A DNA stretch of 64,000 bases, taken from the NCBI GenBank assembly GCA_019752115.1, contig JAIEMN010000018.1:124001-188000 (forward strand), written 5' to 3'. The notes beneath the pieces were generated by a model. It had not been told where the DNA came from, made no database searches, and worked only from the letters and a program-made list of their open reading frames with translations. Source of the DNA: Gemmatimonadaceae bacterium (GTDB taxonomy: Bacteria > Gemmatimonadota > Gemmatimonadetes > Gemmatimonadales > Gemmatimonadaceae). Each line of letters begins with the position of its first letter. Positions within the stretch are counted from its first letter, which is position 1. This document shows positions 34,323 through 44,669 of the stretch, piece by piece. A program made the translations under genes and the position numbers.

Positions 34323-34841
34323 TTACGGAGTCTTCTTCTTGCCGGTGTCCTTCGGGGCCGCCGGCAGTTCGCCAGGCCGCGAGGATTGCGGGACACTGAA
34401 ATCCCCCGGCTCGTCGGCCGAGAGGATGTCCTGGGTCCAGTCCTGCGTCTTCTGCAGCGCCTGCGTGGAATCGCGGCGGAACTGGACGGCCATGGCCCAC
34501 ATCCCTGCTGTCACGAACAGCAGGTTGCTGCGATAGGTGCCCAACTCCTCGGTGGCTTCGAGGCCGTTGGCGACCGTCTTCATGTCCCGGTTCGTGGCGA
34601 AGATGCGCCCCTGCCCGCCCTGAATCGGCGTGCCGGTCTTCGCATCATGCACCGTGATCCGCCAGTAGATCGGCTCGAGCGCGCGCGTCGGCTTGGTTTC
34701 CGGGGAGACCCGGATCGTGAAGTCCTCCGTCTTCAGACGGAGTTCGTTCTTCGGCGGCGTCCCCGCATCGCAGCCGGCCAACAGCAGGCCGGCTGCCGTG
34801 AGGAGCGCCGCGCCAAGCCGGCGCGAGCGCGTGAGGATCAT
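34323..34841 (-). CDS. Lipoprotein with YtkA/FixH-like domain (tentative)
   Basis: The 172-residue protein has a lipobox signal MILTRSRRLGAALLTAAGLLLAGC. The mature part includes LEPIYWRITVHDAKTGTPIQGGQGRIFATN and LGTYRSNLLFVTAGMWAMAVQF. That beta pattern recalls the YtkA-like fold, in which small periplasmic proteins modify or carry other domains. A Lys/Thr/Pro tail ends it. It overlaps the inositol-phosphate synthase stop by four bases (ATGA), so it belongs to that operon. Function is unknown. Confidence 0.75.
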   Translation of the reverse strand: MILTRSRRLGAALLTAAGLLLAGCDAGTPPKNELRLKTEDFTIRVSPETKPTRALEPIYWRITVHDAKTGTPIQGGQGRIFATNRDMKTVANGLEATEELGTYRSNLLFVTAGMWAMAVQFRRDSTQALQKTQDWTQDILSADEPGDFSVPQSSRPGELPAAPKDTGKKKTP

Positions 34842-36169
34842 TGGTAGTATTCGAGTCCGAGGTGCGTGATCTGCTCCTCACCCATCAGGTGACGGAGCGT
34901 GTTCTTCAGCTTCGTCTGCTGGATGAAAAGGTCATGCTCCGGCTGCAGCCCCGCAGCGACCGTCGGCGACTTGTAATAGAAGCTTAACCATTCCTGAATC
35001 CCCTTCATCCCCGCGCGCTGCGCGAAGTCGGAGAACAGGGCCAGGTCGAGCACGAGCGGCGCGGCCAGGATCGAATCGCGGCAGAGGAAGTTGACCTTGA
35101 TCTGCATCGGGTAGCCGAGCCACCCCTTGATGTCGATGTTGTCCCAGCCTTCCTTATTGTCGCCGCGCGGCGGGTAGTAGTTGATGCGCACGACGTGCGA
35201 GAAATCCTTGTACAGCTCCGGGTACTTCTCGGGCTGCAGGATCGTGTGCAGCACGGACAGCTTGGACTCTTCCTTCGTCTTGAACGACGCCGGATCATCG
35301 AGCACTTCGCCGTCGCGGTTGCCGAGGATGTTGGTGGAGTACCAGCCCTCGAGCCCGAGCATGCGCGCCTTCATGCCCGGCGCGATGACGGTCTTCATCC
35401 ACGTCTGGCCGGTCTTGAAGTCCTTGCCCGAGATCGCGACGCCCTTCTGATTCGCGAGCTCCACGAGCGCCGGGAAGTCGGCCGAGAGATTCGGCGCGCC
35501 ATTGCAGTACGCGACGCCTTCCATGATGGCGGCGTAGGCGTACAGCATCGACGGCGCGATCGCCTCGTCGTTCTCTTCCATGGCCTTTTCGAAGGCCTCG
35601 ATCGTCTGGTGCTGCGGGCCCGCCTTGATGAAGATCTCCGTCGAGCCGCACCACACCATCGCACCGCGCGTCGCGCCACTGTCGGCCATCACCTTGCGGA
35701 TGTCGGCGCGGATCTGCTCGGCGAGTTCCTTCTTGTTCTTGCCCGTCTTCACGTTCGTCGCGCCGGTGATGCGCGTGACGTACTTGTTCTCGAAGACGGC
35801 GGGCATCGGCTTGATGCTCTTGAGGAAGTCGGCGATCGGCTCGATGTCGTCCTTCACGAGCACACCGGCCTTCGTCGCGGCCGTGTAGGCATCATCCGGA
35901 ATCGGATCCCAGGCGCCGAACACGATGTCGTTCAGATCCGCGAGGGGCACGAACTCCTTGATGAGCGGGCTGCGATTCTCGGTGCGCTTGCCGAGGCGAA
36001 TGGTCGCCATCTGGGTGAGCGAACCGATGGGCACGGAGAGGCCGCGGCGCACGCGCTCGACACCGGCGATGAACGTCGTCGCCACGGCGCCGAGCCCCGG
36101 CGTGAAGATAGCGAGCTTCCCGGTAGCCGGGGCGATGGTCGCGGGGGTGCCGCGGGTCGAGTCGGACAC
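34838..36169 (-). CDS. ino1: myo-Inositol-1-phosphate synthase
   Basis: MIPS converts glucose 6-phosphate to 1L-myo-inositol 1-phosphate with NAD. The 443-residue protein has the N-terminal LAIFTPGLGAVATTFIAGV Rossmann start, GSTEIFIKAG, PNLSADFPALVELANQKGVAISGKDFKTGQT and NILGNRDGEVL, all family hallmarks. The C-terminal half has WLGYPMQIKVNFLCRDS. The start is GTG 36169, with GGAG located inside the end of the upstream phosphatidyltransferase gene, five bases away. Direct coupling to a CDP-alcohol phosphatidyltransferase indicates inositol lipid synthesis. Confidence 0.95.
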   Translation of the reverse strand: MSDSTRGTPATIAPATGKLAIFTPGLGAVATTFIAGVERVRRGLSVPIGSLTQMATIRLGKRTENRSPLIKEFVPLADLNDIVFGAWDPIPDDAYTAATKAGVLVKDDIEPIADFLKSIKPMPAVFENKYVTRITGATNVKTGKNKKELAEQIRADIRKVMADSGATRGAMVWCGSTEIFIKAGPQHQTIEAFEKAMEENDEAIAPSMLYAYAAIMEGVAYCNGAPNLSADFPALVELANQKGVAISGKDFKTGQTWMKTVIAPGMKARMLGLEGWYSTNILGNRDGEVLDDPASFKTKEESKLSVLHTILQPEKYPELYKDFSHVVRINYYPPRGDNKEGWDNIDIKGWLGYPMQIKVNFLCRDSILAAPLVLDLALFSDFAQRAGMKGIQEWLSFYYKSPTVAAGLQPEHDLFIQQTKLKNTLRHLMGEEQITHLGLEYYQ

Positions 36170-36174
36170 TGCGT

Positions 36175-36816
36175 TTATTCTCCAGGAGAGGTAGAGGTCG
36201 GAGCCGCCGTGGTGATGCGATGCACGTACGCCATGCGCTGGAAGAACGTGATCCACGCCGTCACCGTCAGCAGACAGACGATGGTGGCGAGCACCCAGCC
36301 GTTGAGCGCGAGGCCGAAGAAGGCCTGAGGCGCCGACAGCAGGGTGATGCGCTCGGGCCGTTGCAGCACGCCCACGCGCGCGGAGAAGCCGAGGCCCTCC
36401 GCACGGGCGTTCGTGTACGACGTGAGGAAGGTGGCGATCAGCCCAAGCACGGCGACCATCACCATGGCATCACTGGCGTGCACCGGATGGGTGGCATAGA
36501 ACACCACCAATCCGCCCAGCAGGAAACCGTCGGCCACGCGATCCAGCGTGGAGTCGTAGAACGCCCCGAAGGTCGAACTTTGCCCCGTGCGCCGCGCCAC
36601 CGTGCCGTCGAGCACATCGAAGAGCGCCGTCAACCCCAGAAACCATCCTCCCGTACGGATATGCCCCGAGGCGAAGATGACGCCCGCCGTGCAGGTGCAC
36701 AGGGTTCCGATGGTGGTGATGGTGTTCGGACGCACCCGGCGCGCGACCAGCCAGTCCGCCACAGGGGCGATCACGGCCAGGTACCCGCGCACGATGGCGC
36801 TCCAGAGTGCTTGCAT
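36175..36816 (-). CDS. CDP-alcohol phosphatidyltransferase (probable inositol-phosphate lipid synthase)
   Basis: The 213-residue membrane protein carries the complete CDP-AP signature DxxDGxxAR-x8-GxxxDxxxD, read as DVLDGTVARR then GAFYDSTLDR (about 67-92), flanked by several transmembrane helices. The family includes PgsA, Pss and phosphatidylinositol-phosphate synthases. Because it ends five bases before myo-inositol-phosphate synthase, phosphatidyl- or archaetidyl-inositol phosphate synthase is the best inference. The C-terminus is a short Thr/Ser/Pro tail. No phosphatase for the lipid is adjacent. Confidence 0.85.
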   Translation of the reverse strand: MQALWSAIVRGYLAVIAPVADWLVARRVRPNTITTIGTLCTCTAGVIFASGHIRTGGWFLGLTALFDVLDGTVARRTGQSSTFGAFYDSTLDRVADGFLLGGLVVFYATHPVHASDAMVMVAVLGLIATFLTSYTNARAEGLGFSARVGVLQRPERITLLSAPQAFFGLALNGWVLATIVCLLTVTAWITFFQRMAYVHRITTAAPTSTSPGE

Positions 36817-36905: not shown

Positions 36906-38234
36906 TCAACGGTAGAGATAGAACCGTCGCGCGTCCTTCTCGAAGGCAATCACCTGCGGCAGGAGGCGATCGAGTACGGCATCCGGATCGGCGCCGCCGA
37001 GCAGCGCCTCGCGCAGCTTCGCACTCCCCATGCGGAGGTCGAACCCCGGGGTGGTGATCCGCAGCGAGTCCCGATGGACCCGGTTGAGCGCCCAGAGGAT
37101 CGCCGCCCCGATGCGGGCCGGCTGCGCCCGCTCCCGATCGGTCAGTTCGAGCCGCACCCCGGGGATGGTCCGCCCGGCAAACTTGCCATCGCCCGGCGCG
37201 TTCGGGGTAAAGCGCTCAGCGTGGAACTTGACGCCGGTGAGCGACAGATCTTCGAGCAGCTGCACAACCGTGTCCGCCTTGAGCCAGGACGCCCCGAACC
37301 GCTGGAAGGGCTCGCTGGTGCCCCGGCCGACCGACACGTTGCTGGCCTCGAAGGGGACGAGCGCGGGGTAGAAGAGCGCCGACGTGAGATTCGGCATGTT
37401 CGGCGACGGCCGCACCCACGGGAGGTCCGTCTCATCGAACCACATGGCGCGCCGCCAATTGCGCATGGGGACCACGGTGAGGCGGGCGCCCATCTTGAGC
37501 TGCGCCTGAAACAGGCGGGCCATCTCGCCCATCGTGAGGCCGTGTCGCAGCGGCATCGGATAGAGCGCAAAGCCATTTGTGCTTCCGGAGCCCGGGCCGG
37601 GATACGCCGCGTTGGCCAGCGCGGAATCGAGCAGCGGCCCTTCGCTCACGCCCGAGAGCGGATTGGGACGGTCGAGCACGAGCACCGGGATGCCCCGCTT
37701 CTCGGCGGCCTGCATGCTGTAGAGCATCACGCCCACGTAGGTCCACGTGCGGGTCCCGATGTCCTGCAGGTCCACCACGAGGATATCGACATCGCGCAGC
37801 AGCGAGTCTGGCGGCGGCATCGTCCGCTGCTGATAGAGCGAGTAGATCTTGAGCCCGGTTTTCGGGTCCGTCTCGTCGGCCAGATTGGTCCGGTCGGCCG
37901 TACCCGTCGCGCCGTGCTCCGGCGCAAAGAGCTTCACGAGCTTGACCCCGGCGGCCGTGGCGCGCTTGTCCGCAAAGAGCAGGTCGATCGAGCGCCGCCC
38001 CTTTTCGTCAACACCCGTCTGATTGGTCACCAGCGCGACCCGCTTGCCGGCGACGAGCTTGATGCTATCGTCCAAGAGGACGGTAATCCCCGGGCGGACC
38101 CTCCGATCGAGGAAGCGGTTGGCCATGGGGCCCACCTGATCGCCGTCGTCGGGGAGCGGGGCCTGATTCGGCCGCGGCCCGCACGCCGCGAGTACCAGCA
38201 TGGCCAGCGATGCCAGCCTCCAAGTGCCCTTCAC
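36906..38234 (-). CDS. namZ: DUF1343 / NamZ-type exo-beta-N-acetylmuramidase lipoprotein
   Basis: The 442-residue protein has a lipoprotein signal (WRLASLAMLVLAAC) and the DUF1343 hallmarks GKRVALVTNQTGVD, KLFAPEHGATG, DILVVDLQDIGTRTWTY, VLDRPNPLSG and PSPNMPNL. B. subtilis NamZ (YbbC), the founding GH171 enzyme, removes terminal MurNAc from peptidoglycan fragments. The lipid anchor would place it at the periplasmic face. The start is GTG 38234 with GGAGAG upstream; the long open frame beyond it overlaps the divergent gene. Its divergent neighbour resembles AmiE, the partner in B. subtilis. Confidence 0.9.
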   Translation of the reverse strand: MKGTWRLASLAMLVLAACGPRPNQAPLPDDGDQVGPMANRFLDRRVRPGITVLLDDSIKLVAGKRVALVTNQTGVDEKGRRSIDLLFADKRATAAGVKLVKLFAPEHGATGTADRTNLADETDPKTGLKIYSLYQQRTMPPPDSLLRDVDILVVDLQDIGTRTWTYVGVMLYSMQAAEKRGIPVLVLDRPNPLSGVSEGPLLDSALANAAYPGPGSGSTNGFALYPMPLRHGLTMGEMARLFQAQLKMGARLTVVPMRNWRRAMWFDETDLPWVRPSPNMPNLTSALFYPALVPFEASNVSVGRGTSEPFQRFGASWLKADTVVQLLEDLSLTGVKFHAERFTPNAPGDGKFAGRTIPGVRLELTDRERAQPARIGAAILWALNRVHRDSLRITTPGFDLRMGSAKLREALLGGADPDAVLDRLLPQVIAFEKDARRFYLYR

Positions 38235-38289
38235 GCGATCTCTCCGTAGGTTTCGGGCGCGATCGTACGCGCACTCCTTCCGCGAACAC

Positions 38290-39579
38290 ATGAGCCTCTC
38301 GTTCCCCCATCTCTGGCAGAACCGCTCCCACAACAACGCACCGCACGAGCGCTTTCTCAAGCGCCCCGGCGGCCAGCGCCTGGTGCGGGCCGTGGTGCTG
38401 CTGAGCGCCCTCGGCGCCCTGAGCATTGCCGGTTGCGCCGCTGCCACGCGGAGGACCACACCGCCGGCCGGGGTCAGCCCGGCCACGGCGAAGGCGGTTC
38501 GCGACAGCCTGCGCGCCGTACTCGAGCGCGCCGTGGCGGACAGCGCCTTCCCCGGCGCGTACGCGGTCGTTGGGACCGCCGACGGGGTGATCGCCGAGTA
38601 CGGCGTGGGGCGCCTCGACAGTGCCGACGCCGCGCGCCCGACGAACAAGACGGTCTGGGACCTCGCCTCGCTCACGAAGGTGATTGGCACGACGAGTGCC
38701 ATGATTCAGCTGGTGGGCAGCGGTCGGGTGGCGCTGGACTCCCCGGTGGTGAAGTACCTGCCGGAGTGGACCGCTCCGGGGGCGAGCCGGATCACCGTGC
38801 GGAACCTCCTCGCGCACAACTCCGGCCTTCCGGCCTGGCGCGCCCTGTACAAGGAGTCGGCCACCCCGGCCGAAGCGGCGGCCCAGCTCTTCGCCACCTC
38901 CCCGGACACGGTGCCGGGCGTTCGGTTCCTCTACAGCGACCTCGGCTTCATTCTGCTGGGCAAGCTGGTCGAGAAGGTTTCGGGGGAGCCGCTCGCGCAG
39001 TACGACACGACCCATGTGTTCGGGCCGCTCGGGATGCACGACACCCGCTACCTGCCCCCGGCGTCGTGGCTCCCGCGCATTGCCCCCACCGAGCAGGACT
39101 CGTGGCGCGGTCGCAAGCTCCGCGGCGAGGTCCACGACGAGAATGCGTCCCGACTGGGCGGCGTCTCCGGGCACGCCGGGCTCTTCTCGAGCGCCCGGGA
39201 CCTGACGCGCTTTGCCCAGATGTACCTGCACTACGGCACGCTCGACGGGGTCCGGGTGTTCGACTCGGCGACTGTGGCGCGCTTCATCCGGGTGCAGGAC
39301 ACGACGGTCAGCCGCCGGGCCCTGGGCTGGGAGACCCCCACCGGGCGGAATTCGGCGGGGCGGAAGATGCCGGCAGTGGCCTTCGGCCATACCGGGTTCA
39401 CCGGCACCTCGCTCTGGATGGATCCGTCCCACCAGACCTTCGTCCTCCTGCTGACCAACCGGGTGAATCCGACCCGCAACAATACCCGGATCAATGGTGT
39501 CCGGATTTCCCTTGCTGACGCGGTCGTGTCGGCAATGGAGGATACGGGGGTCGGAAACCGCCGCGGAGCGGGGCGTTGA
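38290..39579 (+). CDS. Serine beta-lactamase-family lipoprotein (AmiE/YbbE-like)
   Basis: The 429-residue product has a lipoprotein signal with an unusually long N-region and lipobox IAGC, then the class C beta-lactamase fold. The motifs are SLTK (the SxxK motif, in DLASLTKVIG), YSD (LYSDLGF) and HTG (AFGHTGFTGTS). B. subtilis AmiE of this family cleaves peptides off MurNAc in the NamZ pathway. The family also includes esterases and D-aminopeptidases. The start is ATG 38290, only 55 bases from the divergent namZ start, so both share a promoter region. No ribosome-binding site is seen. Confidence 0.85.
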   Translation: MSLSFPHLWQNRSHNNAPHERFLKRPGGQRLVRAVVLLSALGALSIAGCAAATRRTTPPAGVSPATAKAVRDSLRAVLERAVADSAFPGAYAVVGTADGVIAEYGVGRLDSADAARPTNKTVWDLASLTKVIGTTSAMIQLVGSGRVALDSPVVKYLPEWTAPGASRITVRNLLAHNSGLPAWRALYKESATPAEAAAQLFATSPDTVPGVRFLYSDLGFILLGKLVEKVSGEPLAQYDTTHVFGPLGMHDTRYLPPASWLPRIAPTEQDSWRGRKLRGEVHDENASRLGGVSGHAGLFSSARDLTRFAQMYLHYGTLDGVRVFDSATVARFIRVQDTTVSRRALGWETPTGRNSAGRKMPAVAFGHTGFTGTSLWMDPSHQTFVLLLTNRVNPTRNNTRINGVRISLADAVVSAMEDTGVGNRRGAGR

Positions 39580-39625
39580 CCAGCGCGTGGCGCCGGCCGG
39601 ATCCTCAGGATCCGACTGGTGTTTC

Positions 39626-39749
39626 TTGCAAGGGGAGCGATCCACTCGCTATTTTCCAATTAGCCCGACCCGGGATCATCCCGTGTGCCGCTCGCGAGGG
39701 CGGCGGCACCAGGCTGATCGGGTCCATCAGGCCGGTCCTTGCACCGGCC
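39626..39749 (+). promoter_or_regulatory. Promoter and hairpin leader of the Fe-S carrier gene
   Basis: TTGCAA (39626-39631) and TATTTT (39650-39655) are 18 bases apart. The leader contains CGGGA/TCCCG, then GGCCGGT (39730-39736) pairing with ACCGGCC (39743-39749) just before the GGAGGAG ribosome-binding site. The second hairpin followed by CTTTC could be an attenuator or simply insulate the site. Confidence 0.45.
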
Positions 39750-39765
39750 CTTTCGGAGGAGCACG

Positions 39766-40122
39766 ATGAGCACGATGCAGCAGCCGGACGTCATGGTGGT
39801 ACTGACCCCCGTGGCCGCGGGCGAAGTTCGGAAGTTCATGGAAGCCGAGGGTGTGACGCCCGAGCAGGGTGGCCTGCGCGTCTCGGTGATGCCCGGTGGA
39901 TGCAGCGGCTTCAAGTACGGCCTCGTGATCGAGGACAAGAGCGCGGACGACGACCTCACCCTGGAGATCGAGGGGATCAAGGTGTTCGTGGATCCGTTCT
40001 CGGCGCAGTACTTGAGCGGCACGACGATCGACTACGTGTCGTCGATGCAGGGCTCGGGCTTCACGTTCAAGAATCCGAACTCGACGGGTGGCTGCGGCTG
40101 CGGCAGCTCGTTCTCGGCGTAA
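39766..40122 (+). CDS. erpA: A-type iron-sulfur cluster carrier (ErpA/SufA/IscA family)
   Basis: The 118-residue protein has the three conserved cysteines of A-type carriers: Cys46 in MPGGCSGFKY, and Cys110 and Cys112 in GGCGCGSSF. Its general fold shows TPVAAGEVRKFMEAEG and VFVDPFSAQYLSGTTIDYV. Such proteins pass clusters to target enzymes. ErpA, IscA and SufA cannot be separated by sequence alone here. ATG 39766 has GGAGGAG five bases upstream. It is followed 63 bases later by the NagB-PIG-L gene, with no obvious functional link. Confidence 0.93.
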   Translation: MSTMQQPDVMVVLTPVAAGEVRKFMEAEGVTPEQGGLRVSVMPGGCSGFKYGLVIEDKSADDDLTLEIEGIKVFVDPFSAQYLSGTTIDYVSSMQGSGFTFKNPNSTGGCGCGSSFSA

Positions 40123-40185
40123 GCGCCTTTCCCGCAGGACCCGGCGCCGGTCGGGGCGCCACCGCACGTCACACTCCCCAGTCCC

Positions 40186-42162
40186 ATGTCATTGGCCTCG
40201 GTCACTCCGGCGGCCACTGACGCCATTCAGGCCCGCTCACTCTCCGAGAGTGGCGGGCCTGCGCGCGTCAGTCGGTCGCCGTTCGCACATCCGGGCGTCA
40301 CGGGTACCGCCCGCGAACGCATCCCCACCCTCATCGTTGCGGATCACGCCGAGCTCGCCTCGGTCGTGGCGAACCGCATCGCCACCCTGATGCGCGAACG
40401 GGCCGCCCAAGGACGCCCCGTGGTGCTCGGCCTCGCGACCGGCTCGACACCGATCGGCGTGTATCGCGAGCTCATTCGCCTGCATCGGGATGAGGGGCTG
40501 AGCTTCGCGCATGTGATCTCGTTCAATCTGGACGAGTACTACCCGATGCGCGCGGACAGCATCCACTCGTATCACCGGTTCATGTGGGAGAACCTGTTCT
40601 CTCACGTGGACATCAATCCGGCGAACGTGCACATCCCGGATGGTGCGCTGGCGCGCGCCGATGTCGACGCGGCCTGTGCCACGTACGAGGCGGCCATCGA
40701 GGCCGCGGGCGGCATCGACTTTCAGCTGCTGGGCATCGGCAAGACCGGTCACATCGGCTTCAACGAGCCGGGCTCCGGTGAAGCGAGCCGCACGCGCCTG
40801 GTGCATCTCGACTCGATCACGCGCCGCGACGCCGCCGCGGATTTCTTCGGCGAAGAGAACGTCCCGCGCGAAGCGCTCACGATGGGCATCGCCTCGATCA
40901 TGGGCGCCCGCGAGATCGCCATTCTCGCGACCGGCGAACACAAGTCGGCCATCGTGCGCCGCGCGGTCGAAGGCGAGATCGATCGGGCCGTCGCCGCGAC
41001 GTTCCTCCAGCGCCATCCGAATACCACGTTCTACGTGGACGATGCCGCGGCCGCCGATCTCACACGCGTGGCGACCCCGTGGCTCGTCGATGAGGTGGTG
41101 TGGGAAGAAGCCCTCGCCGTGCGCGCCGTGACGTGGCTGGCCGGCAAGGCGGGCAAGGCCATCCTCAAGCTCACGCAGCACGACTACGCCGAGAACTCGC
41201 TGTCGTCGCTCGTGGCGCAGCATGGCTCGCCAGGCGCGGTCAACGGCCTCGTGTTCAACATCCTCGGCCACAAGATCCGCGGCAAGAGCAAGCTCCCGCG
41301 CGGACTCAAGACCATCTGCTTCTCGCCACATCCCGACGACGACGTCATCTCGATGGGCGGCATTCTCCGCAAGTTCGTGGAGAATGGCAACGACATGACG
41401 GTGGCGTACATGACGAGCGGCAACATCGCCGTCTTCGATCATGACGTGCGTCGCTACATGGATTTCCTGGTGCGTCTCGACACCGAGCGACTCGGTGGCA
41501 GCGACACCGTGCATTCCAGCGTGCGCACGCTGGCGGACACCGTGCACGGATTCCTGGCGCGCAAACAGGCGGGCGAGGTGGACATCGCCGAGGTCCAGGA
41601 CATCAAGCGCATCATCCGTGAGTCGGAGGCGGTGAGCGGCATCGAGGTGATGGGGCTGTCGCGCGCCAACGCGCGGTTCCTCAACCTGCCCTTCTATCAG
41701 ACGGGCAAGGTGCGCAAGGATCCGATCGGACCGGCCGATGTGGCGATCGTGGCGGACCTGCTTCGCGAGCTCGAGCCGGAGCTGATCTTCGTGGCCGGCG
41801 ACCTCTCGGATCCGCACGGCACGCATCGCATGTGCAAGGAAGCGATCGATCTGGCGCTCGCCGAGGTGTACGCCGGCGCGAATGCGTCCAAGCGCCCCGA
41901 GGTCTGGCTGTATCGCGGCGCCTGGCAGGAATGGCCGGTCACCGAGGCCACGGTGCTGGTGCCGCTGTCGCAGGAGGAGCTCACGCTCAAGATCCAGGCG
42001 ATCTTCAAACATCAGTCCCAGAAGGACTCGGCGCCCTTCCCCGGCCAGGATGAGCGTGAGTTCTGGCAGCGCGTGGAGCAGCGCAACAAGACCACCGCGC
42101 GCCAGTTGGATGATCTGGGGCTCGCGGAGTACTTCGCGATGGAGGCGTACGTCATTGCCTGA
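40186..42162 (+). CDS. NagB-like deaminase fused to PIG-L/LmbE deacetylase
   Basis: The 658-residue protein joins two enzymes. Residues about 45-330 are NagB-like (VVLGLATGSTPIG, FNLDEYYPM with Asp116/Glu117, GIGKTGHIGFNEPG with His189 and Glu194). Residues about 372-655 are a PIG-L zinc deacetylase (PHPDDDVISMGG with His382/Asp385, and SDPHGTHRMC with His547). The catalytic NDGH Asp of classical NagB is Thr187 (KTGH). Bacteroides encodes similar fusions. Plausibly it deacetylates GlcNAc 6-phosphate and then deaminates glucosamine 6-phosphate, replacing NagA and NagB. It precedes a symporter and an amino-sugar kinase. Confidence 0.9.
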   Translation: MSLASVTPAATDAIQARSLSESGGPARVSRSPFAHPGVTGTARERIPTLIVADHAELASVVANRIATLMRERAAQGRPVVLGLATGSTPIGVYRELIRLHRDEGLSFAHVISFNLDEYYPMRADSIHSYHRFMWENLFSHVDINPANVHIPDGALARADVDAACATYEAAIEAAGGIDFQLLGIGKTGHIGFNEPGSGEASRTRLVHLDSITRRDAAADFFGEENVPREALTMGIASIMGAREIAILATGEHKSAIVRRAVEGEIDRAVAATFLQRHPNTTFYVDDAAAADLTRVATPWLVDEVVWEEALAVRAVTWLAGKAGKAILKLTQHDYAENSLSSLVAQHGSPGAVNGLVFNILGHKIRGKSKLPRGLKTICFSPHPDDDVISMGGILRKFVENGNDMTVAYMTSGNIAVFDHDVRRYMDFLVRLDTERLGGSDTVHSSVRTLADTVHGFLARKQAGEVDIAEVQDIKRIIRESEAVSGIEVMGLSRANARFLNLPFYQTGKVRKDPIGPADVAIVADLLRELEPELIFVAGDLSDPHGTHRMCKEAIDLALAEVYAGANASKRPEVWLYRGAWQEWPVTEATVLVPLSQEELTLKIQAIFKHQSQKDSAPFPGQDEREFWQRVEQRNKTTARQLDDLGLAEYFAMEAYVIA

Positions 42163-42192
42163 TGCCACGCGCCGCCGCGTCGGGGCGGCCGC

Positions 42193-43722
42193 ATGAGCGG
42201 CCGCTTCGATCTGCTCGATCTGCTGGTGCTGCTGATCTATCTCAGTGGCACCACCGCGCTCGGGATGTACATCGGTCGCAACCAAAAGTCGGCGACGGAC
42301 TACTTCGTCGCCGAGCGCAACATTCCGTGGTGGGCCGTGATGTTCTCGATCGTGGCGAGCGAGACCTCGGCGCTGACGTTCATCTCGATCCCGGGGCTGG
42401 CCTACACCGGCAATCTCGGGTTCCTCGAGGTCGTCGCCGGGTACATCCTCGGCCGCATCGTGGTGGCGCAGACGCTGTTGCCGCGCTACTTCGCCGGCAA
42501 TCTCGTGACGGCGTATGCCTTGCTCGAGACGCGCTTCGGCTTGGGCGCGCGTCGCTTCACCAGCATCGTGTTCATGATTACCCGCGCCATGGCCGATGCC
42601 GTGCGCGTGTTTGCCACCGCCATTCCGGTGGCGCTGATCGTGGGTCCGGTCCTGCCGCGTGAATACACCATGCCGGCGGCGATCCTGGTGCTCGGGCTGC
42701 TCACCGTGGTCTACACGTACCGCGGCGGCATGAAGGCGGTGGTGTGGACCGAGCTGTTGCAGGCAAGCATCTACCTCTTTGGCGGCATCTCGGCGCTGGT
42801 GCTCATCGGCCAGGCGGTGGACGGCGGCTGGAGCGCGATCGTGAGCCAGGCCGGCGCGGCGGGCAAGCTGCAGGTGATCGACTGGTACGCCGGCTTCGAT
42901 CGGCCGCACACGATGTTCGCCGGCCTGATCGGCGGCGGGTTCCTGGCGATGGCCTCCCATGGCGCCGACCAGATCATCGTGCAGCGCCTGCTGTCGAGCA
43001 AGTCGCTGCGTGATGCGCAGCGCGCCATCATCGGCAGCGGCATCGCGGTCTTCGCACAGATGACGCTCTTCCTGTTCGTCGGCCTGGGTCTGTGGGTCCT
43101 GTACGGCGGCAAGTCGTTCGCCACCGCCGACGCGATCTTCCCGACGTTCATCATCGAGCGCATGCCGCACGGGCTGATCGGCCTGATCGTGGCCGCCATC
43201 ATCGCCGCCACCATGAGCACGCACTCCGGGGCCATCAACGCGCTCGCGGCGGCCTCGACGCACGACATTTACCTGCCGCTCACCAAGCGGGCGCCGGATG
43301 ATCCGCGCACGCTCAAGGTCGGCAAGCTCTTTGCGCTCGGCTGGGGGCTGGCGCTCACCTTCGGGGCCCTGCTCTTCAAGGAGAATGGCACGCCGGTCGT
43401 AGTCGTGGCGCTGTCCATTGCGTCGTTCACGCAGGGGGGTCTGTTGGGCGGCTTTTTCCTGGGCATGTTCTGGCGTCGGGCCAACCAGCGGGATGCCATC
43501 ACGGGCATGAGCGTGGGGATCTTCGCGATGGCGTTCATCGTCTTCGCGAAGCAGCTGACCGCCGCCTATCCGAGCTTGAAGCCGATGCTGGGTGGGGTGG
43601 CCGGGATTGCCTGGCCCTGGTACGTGTTGATCGGGACCTCGCTTACCTTTGTGACCGGTATGCTGATGTCCTTTACCCATGCGCCGCCGGTGGCGGCCAC
43701 GCCCCCGGAGAGCCGTCGATGA
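42193..43722 (+). CDS. Sodium/solute symporter (SSS family), probable amino-sugar uptake
   Basis: The 509-residue protein has about 13 hydrophobic spans and SSS landmarks: DYFVAERNIPWWAVMFSIVASETSALTF in the N-terminal Na-binding region, YTYRGGMKAVVWTELLQ, GADQIIVQRLLSSKSLRDAQ, and ATMSTHSGAINALAAAS. It is closest in layout to sugar and sialic-acid-type symporters. It starts 30 bases after the NagB-PIG-L stop and overlaps the kinase gene by four bases. Uptake of GlcNAc, MurNAc or a disaccharide is inferred from neighbours, not from motif. Confidence 0.9.
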   Translation: MSGRFDLLDLLVLLIYLSGTTALGMYIGRNQKSATDYFVAERNIPWWAVMFSIVASETSALTFISIPGLAYTGNLGFLEVVAGYILGRIVVAQTLLPRYFAGNLVTAYALLETRFGLGARRFTSIVFMITRAMADAVRVFATAIPVALIVGPVLPREYTMPAAILVLGLLTVVYTYRGGMKAVVWTELLQASIYLFGGISALVLIGQAVDGGWSAIVSQAGAAGKLQVIDWYAGFDRPHTMFAGLIGGGFLAMASHGADQIIVQRLLSSKSLRDAQRAIIGSGIAVFAQMTLFLFVGLGLWVLYGGKSFATADAIFPTFIIERMPHGLIGLIVAAIIAATMSTHSGAINALAAASTHDIYLPLTKRAPDDPRTLKVGKLFALGWGLALTFGALLFKENGTPVVVVALSIASFTQGGLLGGFFLGMFWRRANQRDAITGMSVGIFAMAFIVFAKQLTAAYPSLKPMLGGVAGIAWPWYVLIGTSLTFVTGMLMSFTHAPPVAATPPESRR

Positions 43723-44669
43723 GCGCTGGTCCCCTCGACCCGACACCCCTGGTAGTTGGAGTGGATGGCGGTGGGAGCCGCACCCGCGTGCTGCTGGCCG
43801 ATGCGAACGGGACCGTGCTGGCCCGGGTCGAGGGTGGCGCGAGCGCACTCCGCCCCGGCCAGGAAGGGGCAGCGGCCGATGTGATCAAGGCCCTGATCGG
43901 TGAGGCGCTCGCCTCGGCCGAGCGCACCGATGTGCGGCCGGCGGTGTGTGTGGTGGGGGTGGCCGGCGCTGGTCAGGAGCGGGCCGCGCAGGCGCTGTGG
44001 GCCGCGCTGGCGCAGCGTCGCGTCGCGGATGACGTCTCGGTGCAGGCCGATGCGACGATCGCGATGGACGATGCGTTCGGGGACTCGGCCGGCGTGCTGC
44101 TGATTGCGGGAACGGGATCGGTGGCGTTTTCGCGCGGCCCGGATGGACGACTCGAGCGGTGCGGTGGCTGGGGCCCGAATGTGGGCGACGAGGGGAGCGC
44201 GGCGTGGCTTGGCCGACGGGCCCTGAGCGTGATCACGGCGGCGCACGACGGTCGCGAGCCGGAGACGGCGCTGACGGGCGCCATGCTCACCGCGCTCGAG
44301 CTCGAGCAGCTCGATGACCTGATCCCGTGGGCAGCGAACGCCACCCCCGGCGCGCTCGCGCAGCTCGCCCCGGTGGTGATGCAGGTGGCCGCCACCGGTG
44401 ACCTGCGCGCCAATGCGCTGGTGTCGTTCTGCGTGGAAGAGCTCGCGCTGCACGTGCGCACGCTCGCGCGTCGCTGTTTCACCGACGAGCGCGCCGCCAT
44501 TCCGGTGGCGTTCGCGGGCGGGCTGCTCTCGCGCGGCTCACTCGTGCGCAAGCGGCTCGAACAGCGTCTCAAGAGTGCGGTGCCCGGCGCGATGATCAAG
44601 AATGACGACGTGGATGCGGCGCGGGGTGCCGTGCGGCGCGCGCGCCGACTGCTCGGCGTCGAAGCCTGA
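43719..44669 (+). CDS. BadF/BadG/BcrA-type kinase, N-acetylglucosamine/MurNAc kinase-like
   Basis: The 316-residue protein has the ASKHA phosphate motifs GVDGGGSRTRVLL (14-26) and LLIAGTGSVAFSR, plus GGWGPNVGDEGSAAWLGRRAL, characteristic of eukaryotic-type GlcNAc kinase and clostridial MurK. It should phosphorylate an imported amino sugar with ATP. The start overlaps the symporter stop as ATGA, giving tight coupling of transport and phosphorylation. The plus-strand run ends at a strong hairpin. Activation of 2-hydroxyacyl-CoA dehydratase (the other BadF function) is unlikely in this context. Confidence 0.88.
   Translation: MSAGPLDPTPLVVGVDGGGSRTRVLLADANGTVLARVEGGASALRPGQEGAAADVIKALIGEALASAERTDVRPAVCVVGVAGAGQERAAQALWAALAQRRVADDVSVQADATIAMDDAFGDSAGVLLIAGTGSVAFSRGPDGRLERCGGWGPNVGDEGSAAWLGRRALSVITAAHDGREPETALTGAMLTALELEQLDDLIPWAANATPGALAQLAPVVMQVAATGDLRANALVSFCVEELALHVRTLARRCFTDERAAIPVAFAGGLLSRGSLVRKRLEQRLKSAVPGAMIKNDDVDAARGAVRRARRLLGVEA

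Follow-up and report, generated by a model that had tools for sequence, protein, structure and literature searches.

Salvage of peptidoglycan sugars is well mapped in few phyla. Bacillus subtilis carries the operon murQ-murR-murP-amiE-nagZ-ybbC, and the murQ-murP-yfeW operon of Escherichia coli has a PBP4B-type serine hydrolase beside the import of N-acetylmuramic acid (MurNAc) (PMC5061867). Tannerella forsythia has murT-murK-murQ, in which an SSS-type MurNAc importer lies beside a MurNAc kinase (PMC5790795). Our literature searches found no such study for Gemmatimonadota, a phylum that is common in soil and has few cultured species. Here we describe a gene block from a Gemmatimonadaceae bacterium (genome G000, 5.17 Mb in 83 contigs), located in a stretch of 64,000 nucleotides (G000:C18:124001-188000, hereafter the window). 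The block encodes a NamZ-family muramidase, an AmiE-like serine hydrolase, an ErpA-like Fe-S carrier, a fusion of NagB and PIG-L domains, an SSS symporter and a BadF-type kinase (Table 1). All these genes, as named by a first-pass annotation, are present, with the listed domains scoring above curated cut-offs (Beta-lactamase 208, NagB/PIG-L 80/62, SSF 132, BcrAD_BadFG 125 bits). The locus is real, conserved and coherent, and represents a known kind of salvage locus from a phylum that has received little study, its one oddity being the fusion in place of NagA. Most probably it serves the salvage of muropeptides and of the amino sugars MurNAc and N-acetylglucosamine (GlcNAc), with the fusion covering the NagA step. 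The overall plan is already known, but the work of the usual deacetylase, NagA, seems to be taken over by a fused two-domain enzyme.

Comparison with described systems

Similar to the window's relatives described below, B. subtilis encodes three hydrolases together, namely NagZ, a secreted serine hydrolase of the AmiE type and the ybbC product, which we take to be NamZ; MurNAc import and MurQ act further along the pathway, and related families have the same three hydrolase families in their block. Unlike B. subtilis, where import is by MurP of the phosphotransferase system (PTS) and murQ is within the operon, the locus has an SSS symporter and a kinase, murQ is on another contig, and the locus encodes lipoprotein-like hydrolases as well as a NagB-PIG-L fusion. 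The serine hydrolase gene beside MurNAc import recalls the E. coli operon, which differs in PTS import and has neither NamZ nor the fusion. As in T. forsythia, where MurT-MurK-MurQ occur with NamZ enzymes (PMC5790795, PMC10465942), an importer of the sodium-symporter superfamily adjoins a kinase of the same fold, the likeness to MurT being at the superfamily level only. An SSS carrier in place of a PTS, which the first-pass annotation considered unusual, thus has a precedent in MurT (PMC5790795). Unlike in Tannerella, murQ is not adjacent and the kinase is structurally closer to the MurK of Clostridium acetobutylicum. The fusion has the same two domains as the proteins of family NF002557 (PRK02122, glucosamine-6-phosphate deaminase-like fusion) in Bacteroidota, Planctomycetota and others; what differs here is its location inside a NamZ/SSS/kinase block, in a phylum with nagA almost never found.

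The combination of a NamZ-NagZ-AmiE set of the B. subtilis type with a symporter-kinase pair as in Tannerella makes muropeptide and MurNAc salvage the best reading. Judging from the protein families, the lipoprotein-like NamZ and the AmiE-like hydrolase would free MurNAc and GlcNAc from wall fragments outside the cytoplasm, probably assisted by a lipoprotein-like NagZ, which is encoded elsewhere in this genome and inside the block in relatives. The symporter would import MurNAc and/or GlcNAc and the kinase would phosphorylate the imported sugar at C6, as suggested by the nearest solved enzyme, which takes both sugars. MurQ, encoded on another contig with AnmK and a NagZ, would convert MurNAc 6-phosphate (MurNAc-6P) to GlcNAc 6-phosphate (GlcNAc-6P); the PIG-L domain of the fusion may deacetylate the latter, covering the missing NagA step, and the NagB domain would deaminate the resulting glucosamine 6-phosphate to fructose 6-phosphate. 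Such a route of release, import, phosphorylation, deacetylation and deamination was proposed in the first-pass annotation and, backed by genomic context, stays the best reading, whereas three points made there (a missing murQ, an unusual SSS carrier and an intervening Fe-S carrier) fall. Literature searches found no growth data for Gemmatimonas on MurNAc; the medium used to grow a relative included GlcNAc, but also glucose, peptone and yeast extract, and so provides no test (PMC11271474).

The gene block and its conservation

The NamZ protein is full length, its NamZ_N and NamZ_C domains scoring 231 and 130 bits against curated cut-offs of 26.9 and 25, and is predicted to release MurNAc from non-reducing ends. 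The serine hydrolase possesses the motifs SLTK, YSD and HTG of the SxxK/YxD/HTG pattern. Its best NCBIfam model is PBP4B (NF002968), but the 143 bits lie under the cut-off of 385 and place it outside that family; on the basis of family and motifs it is a putative MurNAc-L-Ala amidase of the AmiE type. The lipid anchors claimed earlier for both hydrolases correspond to lipobox-like sequences spotted by eye, LVLAAC at the N-terminus of NamZ and LSIAGC in the serine hydrolase. A lipoprotein-like GH3 NagZ is encoded at G000:C65:9456-10442 (L102) and is 38-43% identical to the block NagZ of other families. Two more NamZ genes, divergent, adjacent and back to back, are found on contig C19 (G000:C19:134308-135859, L095).

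The importer is assigned to the SSS superfamily (PF00474, TIGR00813), with MurNAc and GlcNAc as candidate substrates. The profile of the kinase matches C. acetobutylicum MurK (8zo3) at E 1.2e-57, and its structural model (mean predicted local distance difference test score, pLDDT, 92.6) aligns with this enzyme at Z 36.3 over 304 residues, as compared to Z 26.3 for Tannerella K1058 and 24.9 for Tannerella MurK. The nearest solved relatives are MurNAc/GlcNAc kinases, and C. acetobutylicum MurK itself acts on both MurNAc and GlcNAc (PMC5790795). Exclusion of MurNAc has been linked to an Asn before the catalytic Asp, a permissive pocket also being without a bulky residue at positions 133-136 of Tannerella MurK (PMC10465942). 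None of the 18 aligned kinases has Asn directly before its catalytic Asp, which is compatible with MurNAc use under this rule, although C. acetobutylicum MurK has the Asn and yet takes MurNAc. The preference of kinase and carrier for MurNAc or GlcNAc is not settled by sequence.

The adjacency of these genes is conserved in relatives. Counting copies uncut by contig ends, all 14 of the same genus keep one fixed order: inositol-phosphate synthase, phosphatidylinositol-phosphate-synthase-like gene, NamZ, hydrolase, ErpA-like carrier, NagB-PIG-L fusion, SSS symporter and kinase. The first two genes are missing from L054 of this genus, where the contig ends. Two further families of this order also keep the core genes, and there 11 of 11 uncut copies contain NamZ, NagZ beside NamZ, often the hydrolase, the Fe-S carrier, the symporter and the kinase; identity of NamZ, symporter and kinase is roughly 36-49%, and the block NagZ shows the signature KHFPGHGDTxxDSH in most copies. 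The wider-order block thus encodes the three hydrolases that are grouped in B. subtilis (AmiE, NagZ and the ybbC product). The fusion is located elsewhere, outside the block, in these 11 copies. L065, of the window's genus, has a block with both NagZ and the fusion, which joins the two arrangements. Gene order is kept well beyond chance. The salvage reading is strengthened because NagZ adjoins NamZ in the other families, and by a run in Polaribacter marinus consisting of NamZ, SSS symporter, murQ, an unassigned membrane gene, GH3, GH18, NamZ and the fusion.

The ErpA-like carrier occurs in every uncut copy of all three families. It is therefore a constant member of the conserved block, which rules out the earlier description of it as an interruption of the run; an Fe-S enzyme was not recognised in the block. 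Additionally, the blocks of several related genomes (L083, L084, L086, L087 and L097) contain another SSS gene, with about 25% identity, a possible split of MurNAc and GlcNAc import.

The NagB-PIG-L fusion and the NagA step

The fusion matches NF002557 with 912 bits over residues 34-656 (cut-off 384), which covers both domains and makes it a member of the family; NagB spans residues ~45-298 and PIG-L ~373-650. In its structural model (mean pLDDT 82), NagB structures align with Z 37.5 across 242 residues, and the best folds for the PIG-L half are BshB and archaeal diacetylchitobiose deacetylases (Z ~19 over ~206-225 residues). H382, D384, D385, H544 and H547 of PIG-L (HPDD and HGTH motifs) and D116, H189 and E194 of NagB are invariant across 30 sequences of several phyla; these make up the metal and catalytic motifs, intact in both domains. 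GlcNAc-6P deacetylation is a good guess for the PIG-L domain. Fusion genes in 80 loci of other phyla have as neighbours murQ (8/80), a GH3 NagZ-like gene (7/80) or anmK (5/80). Literature searches for NagB-PIG-L or an LmbE deacetylase-deaminase found no study, and a role as a defence gene was discarded since PADLOC gave no match.

Absence of both nagA and murQ had been noted for the locus, and this is correct for the locus itself. The genome does contain murQ (G000:C7:90761-91624, 366 bits, cut-off 302), which rules out its absence and means that MurNAc-6P is convertible to GlcNAc-6P. After this murQ come anmK and a nagZ-like gene, whose ends overlap, and a gamma-glutamyltransferase gene is nearby; the operon (G000:C7; L047:6937-13293) is a separate set for anhydro-muropeptide recycling. 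No nagA was found above cut-off in 41 genomes (G000 and 40 relatives) searched with TIGR00221, the best match in G000 reaching about 24 bits against a cut-off of 226; G000 has 34 amidohydrolase matches, two of which were given names. When six candidates per genome were scored across the phylum, nagA was detected in 5 of 295 genomes at E 1e-40 or better (one above cut-off), a threshold at which the NagA-containing B. subtilis control went undetected and a Bacillus-type NagA could escape. The missing nagA thus holds as far as these searches reach. The fusion is present in 187 of the 295 genomes.

Chances appear evenly balanced that the Gemmatimonadota fusion is a bifunctional enzyme leading from GlcNAc-6P to fructose 6-phosphate, whose PIG-L deacetylase, unrelated to NagA, replaced NagA in most of the phylum, and that it was recruited in this genus into the NamZ-NagZ-AmiE block. 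Deacetylation of GlcNAc-6P by the fusion, if true, would provide a function for a widespread curated family (NF002557 of Bacteroidota, Planctomycetota and Gemmatimonadota) and explain the use of GlcNAc and MurNAc by genomes annotated without nagA.

Several observations weigh against the fusion's proposed role or the salvage pathway. The murQ gene is outside the locus on another contig, and a regulator was not identified within the block. The NagZ on C65 has the catalytic dyad NSH, with N replacing the D of DSH, which makes its activity uncertain; the same variant is also present in the NagZ of L093. Position 187 of the fusion's NagB domain is T, and D in the human enzyme. Among the inspected genomes with the block, the fusion lies inside it only in the window's genus. 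Moreover, seven related genomes with NamZ and the kinase, six of them also with murQ, have neither nagA nor the fusion, so another means of handling GlcNAc-6P can exist. These are G030, G031, G032, G035, G037, G038 and G039, with murQ above cut-off in all except G030. Finally, of 32 genomes from other phyla that carry the fusion, 18 also have a NagA above cut-off; the PIG-L domain therefore need not replace NagA, and strict substitution everywhere is ruled out.

Alternative readings and neighbouring genes

The symporter, kinase and fusion might instead form a GlcNAc route, fed by chitin or wall GlcNAc, with MurNAc entering only as anhydro-muropeptides via the murQ-anmK-nagZ operon and with NamZ and the hydrolase as mere neighbours. 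The occurrence of murQ with anmK on another contig agrees with this, since a MurNAc route without MurNAc kinase then exists. The nearest solved kinase uses both sugars and slightly prefers GlcNAc, NagK_SO3507 (NF046058) is the sole NCBIfam model that the kinase matches (107 bits, below the cut-off of 370 for membership), and GH20, named from sequence and not by family search, adjoins the fusion in 5 of the 80 foreign loci. We nevertheless consider a pure GlcNAc route unlikely: symporter and kinase remain next to NamZ and NagZ in three families, even with the fusion elsewhere, and all 18 kinases are without the MurNAc-excluding Asn (PMC10465942), a point qualified by the C. acetobutylicum enzyme mentioned above.

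Still less probable is action of the PIG-L domain on another substrate, such as GlcNAc-inositol, a GlcNAc-lipid or an intermediate of bacillithiol synthesis. In favour of it, PIG-L proteins are best known as deacetylases of GlcNAc-phosphatidylinositol, GlcNAc-inositol and GlcNAc-malate; the top folds of this domain, the inositol-phosphate synthase and phosphatidylinositol-phosphate-synthase-like genes flanking NamZ, and the foreign genomes that have both NagA and the fusion also fit such a role. However, the inositol genes of other families stay with NamZ while the fusion is not next to them, and bacillithiol formation needs no fusion because a BshB1-like deacetylase (C31) and BshC (C8) are separately encoded in the genome. 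The attached NagB domain and the neighbours murQ, anmK and NagZ elsewhere indicate amino-sugar phosphates. Conserved order without joint function, reflecting a stable chromosomal neighbourhood that includes the ErpA-like and inositol-lipid genes, is very improbable. The block does contain such genes without a clear link, but NamZ, NagZ, the AmiE-like hydrolase, the symporter and the amino-sugar kinase are coherent and partly recur together in B. subtilis, Tannerella and Polaribacter, and symporter and kinase genes overlap by 4 bases, as claimed earlier.

Table 1. Genes of the locus and its flank, with positions in the window
Feature	Position	Strand	Evidence
NamZ-family exo-beta-N-acetylmuramidase, 442 aa	36906..38234	-	PF07075 1.5e-68, PF20732 1.6e-37; GTG start inferred
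Beta-lactamase-family serine hydrolase, AmiE/PBP4B-like, 429 aa	38290..39579	+	PF00144 2.4e-61; ATG start inferred
A-type Fe-S carrier, ErpA-like	39739..40122	+	TIGR00049 117 bits, cut-off 58.8
NagB-PIG-L fusion, 658 aa	40186..42162	+	NF002557 912 bits; fold matches
SSS-family sodium:solute symporter, candidate MurNAc/GlcNAc importer	42193..43722	+	PF00474 4.5e-38; TIGR00813 198 bits, cut-off 184
BadF/NagK-type amino-sugar kinase	43719..44669	+	PF01869 6.2e-36; nearest solved structure C. acetobutylicum MurK
Flanking CDP-alcohol phosphatidyltransferase, phosphatidylinositol-phosphate-synthase-like	36175..36816	-	PF01066 1e-14; NF045883 153 bits, slightly under cut-off 170
Flanking myo-inositol-1-phosphate synthase	34838..36256	-	PF07994 5.9e-92

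NamZ is encoded divergently from the plus-strand run (~38290-44669). An open reading frame start at 38702 was rejected for NamZ as too long in favour of the GTG at 38234, and with the hydrolase starting at 38290 the two divergent genes stay clear of each other. A promoter scan of the locus gave results at about chance level and a terminator scan little above it. The inositol-phosphate synthase and phosphatidylinositol-phosphate-synthase-like genes are conserved neighbours outside the proposed pathway. Their position beside NamZ in most copies (34838-36816 in the window) suggests inositol phospholipids in the phylum.

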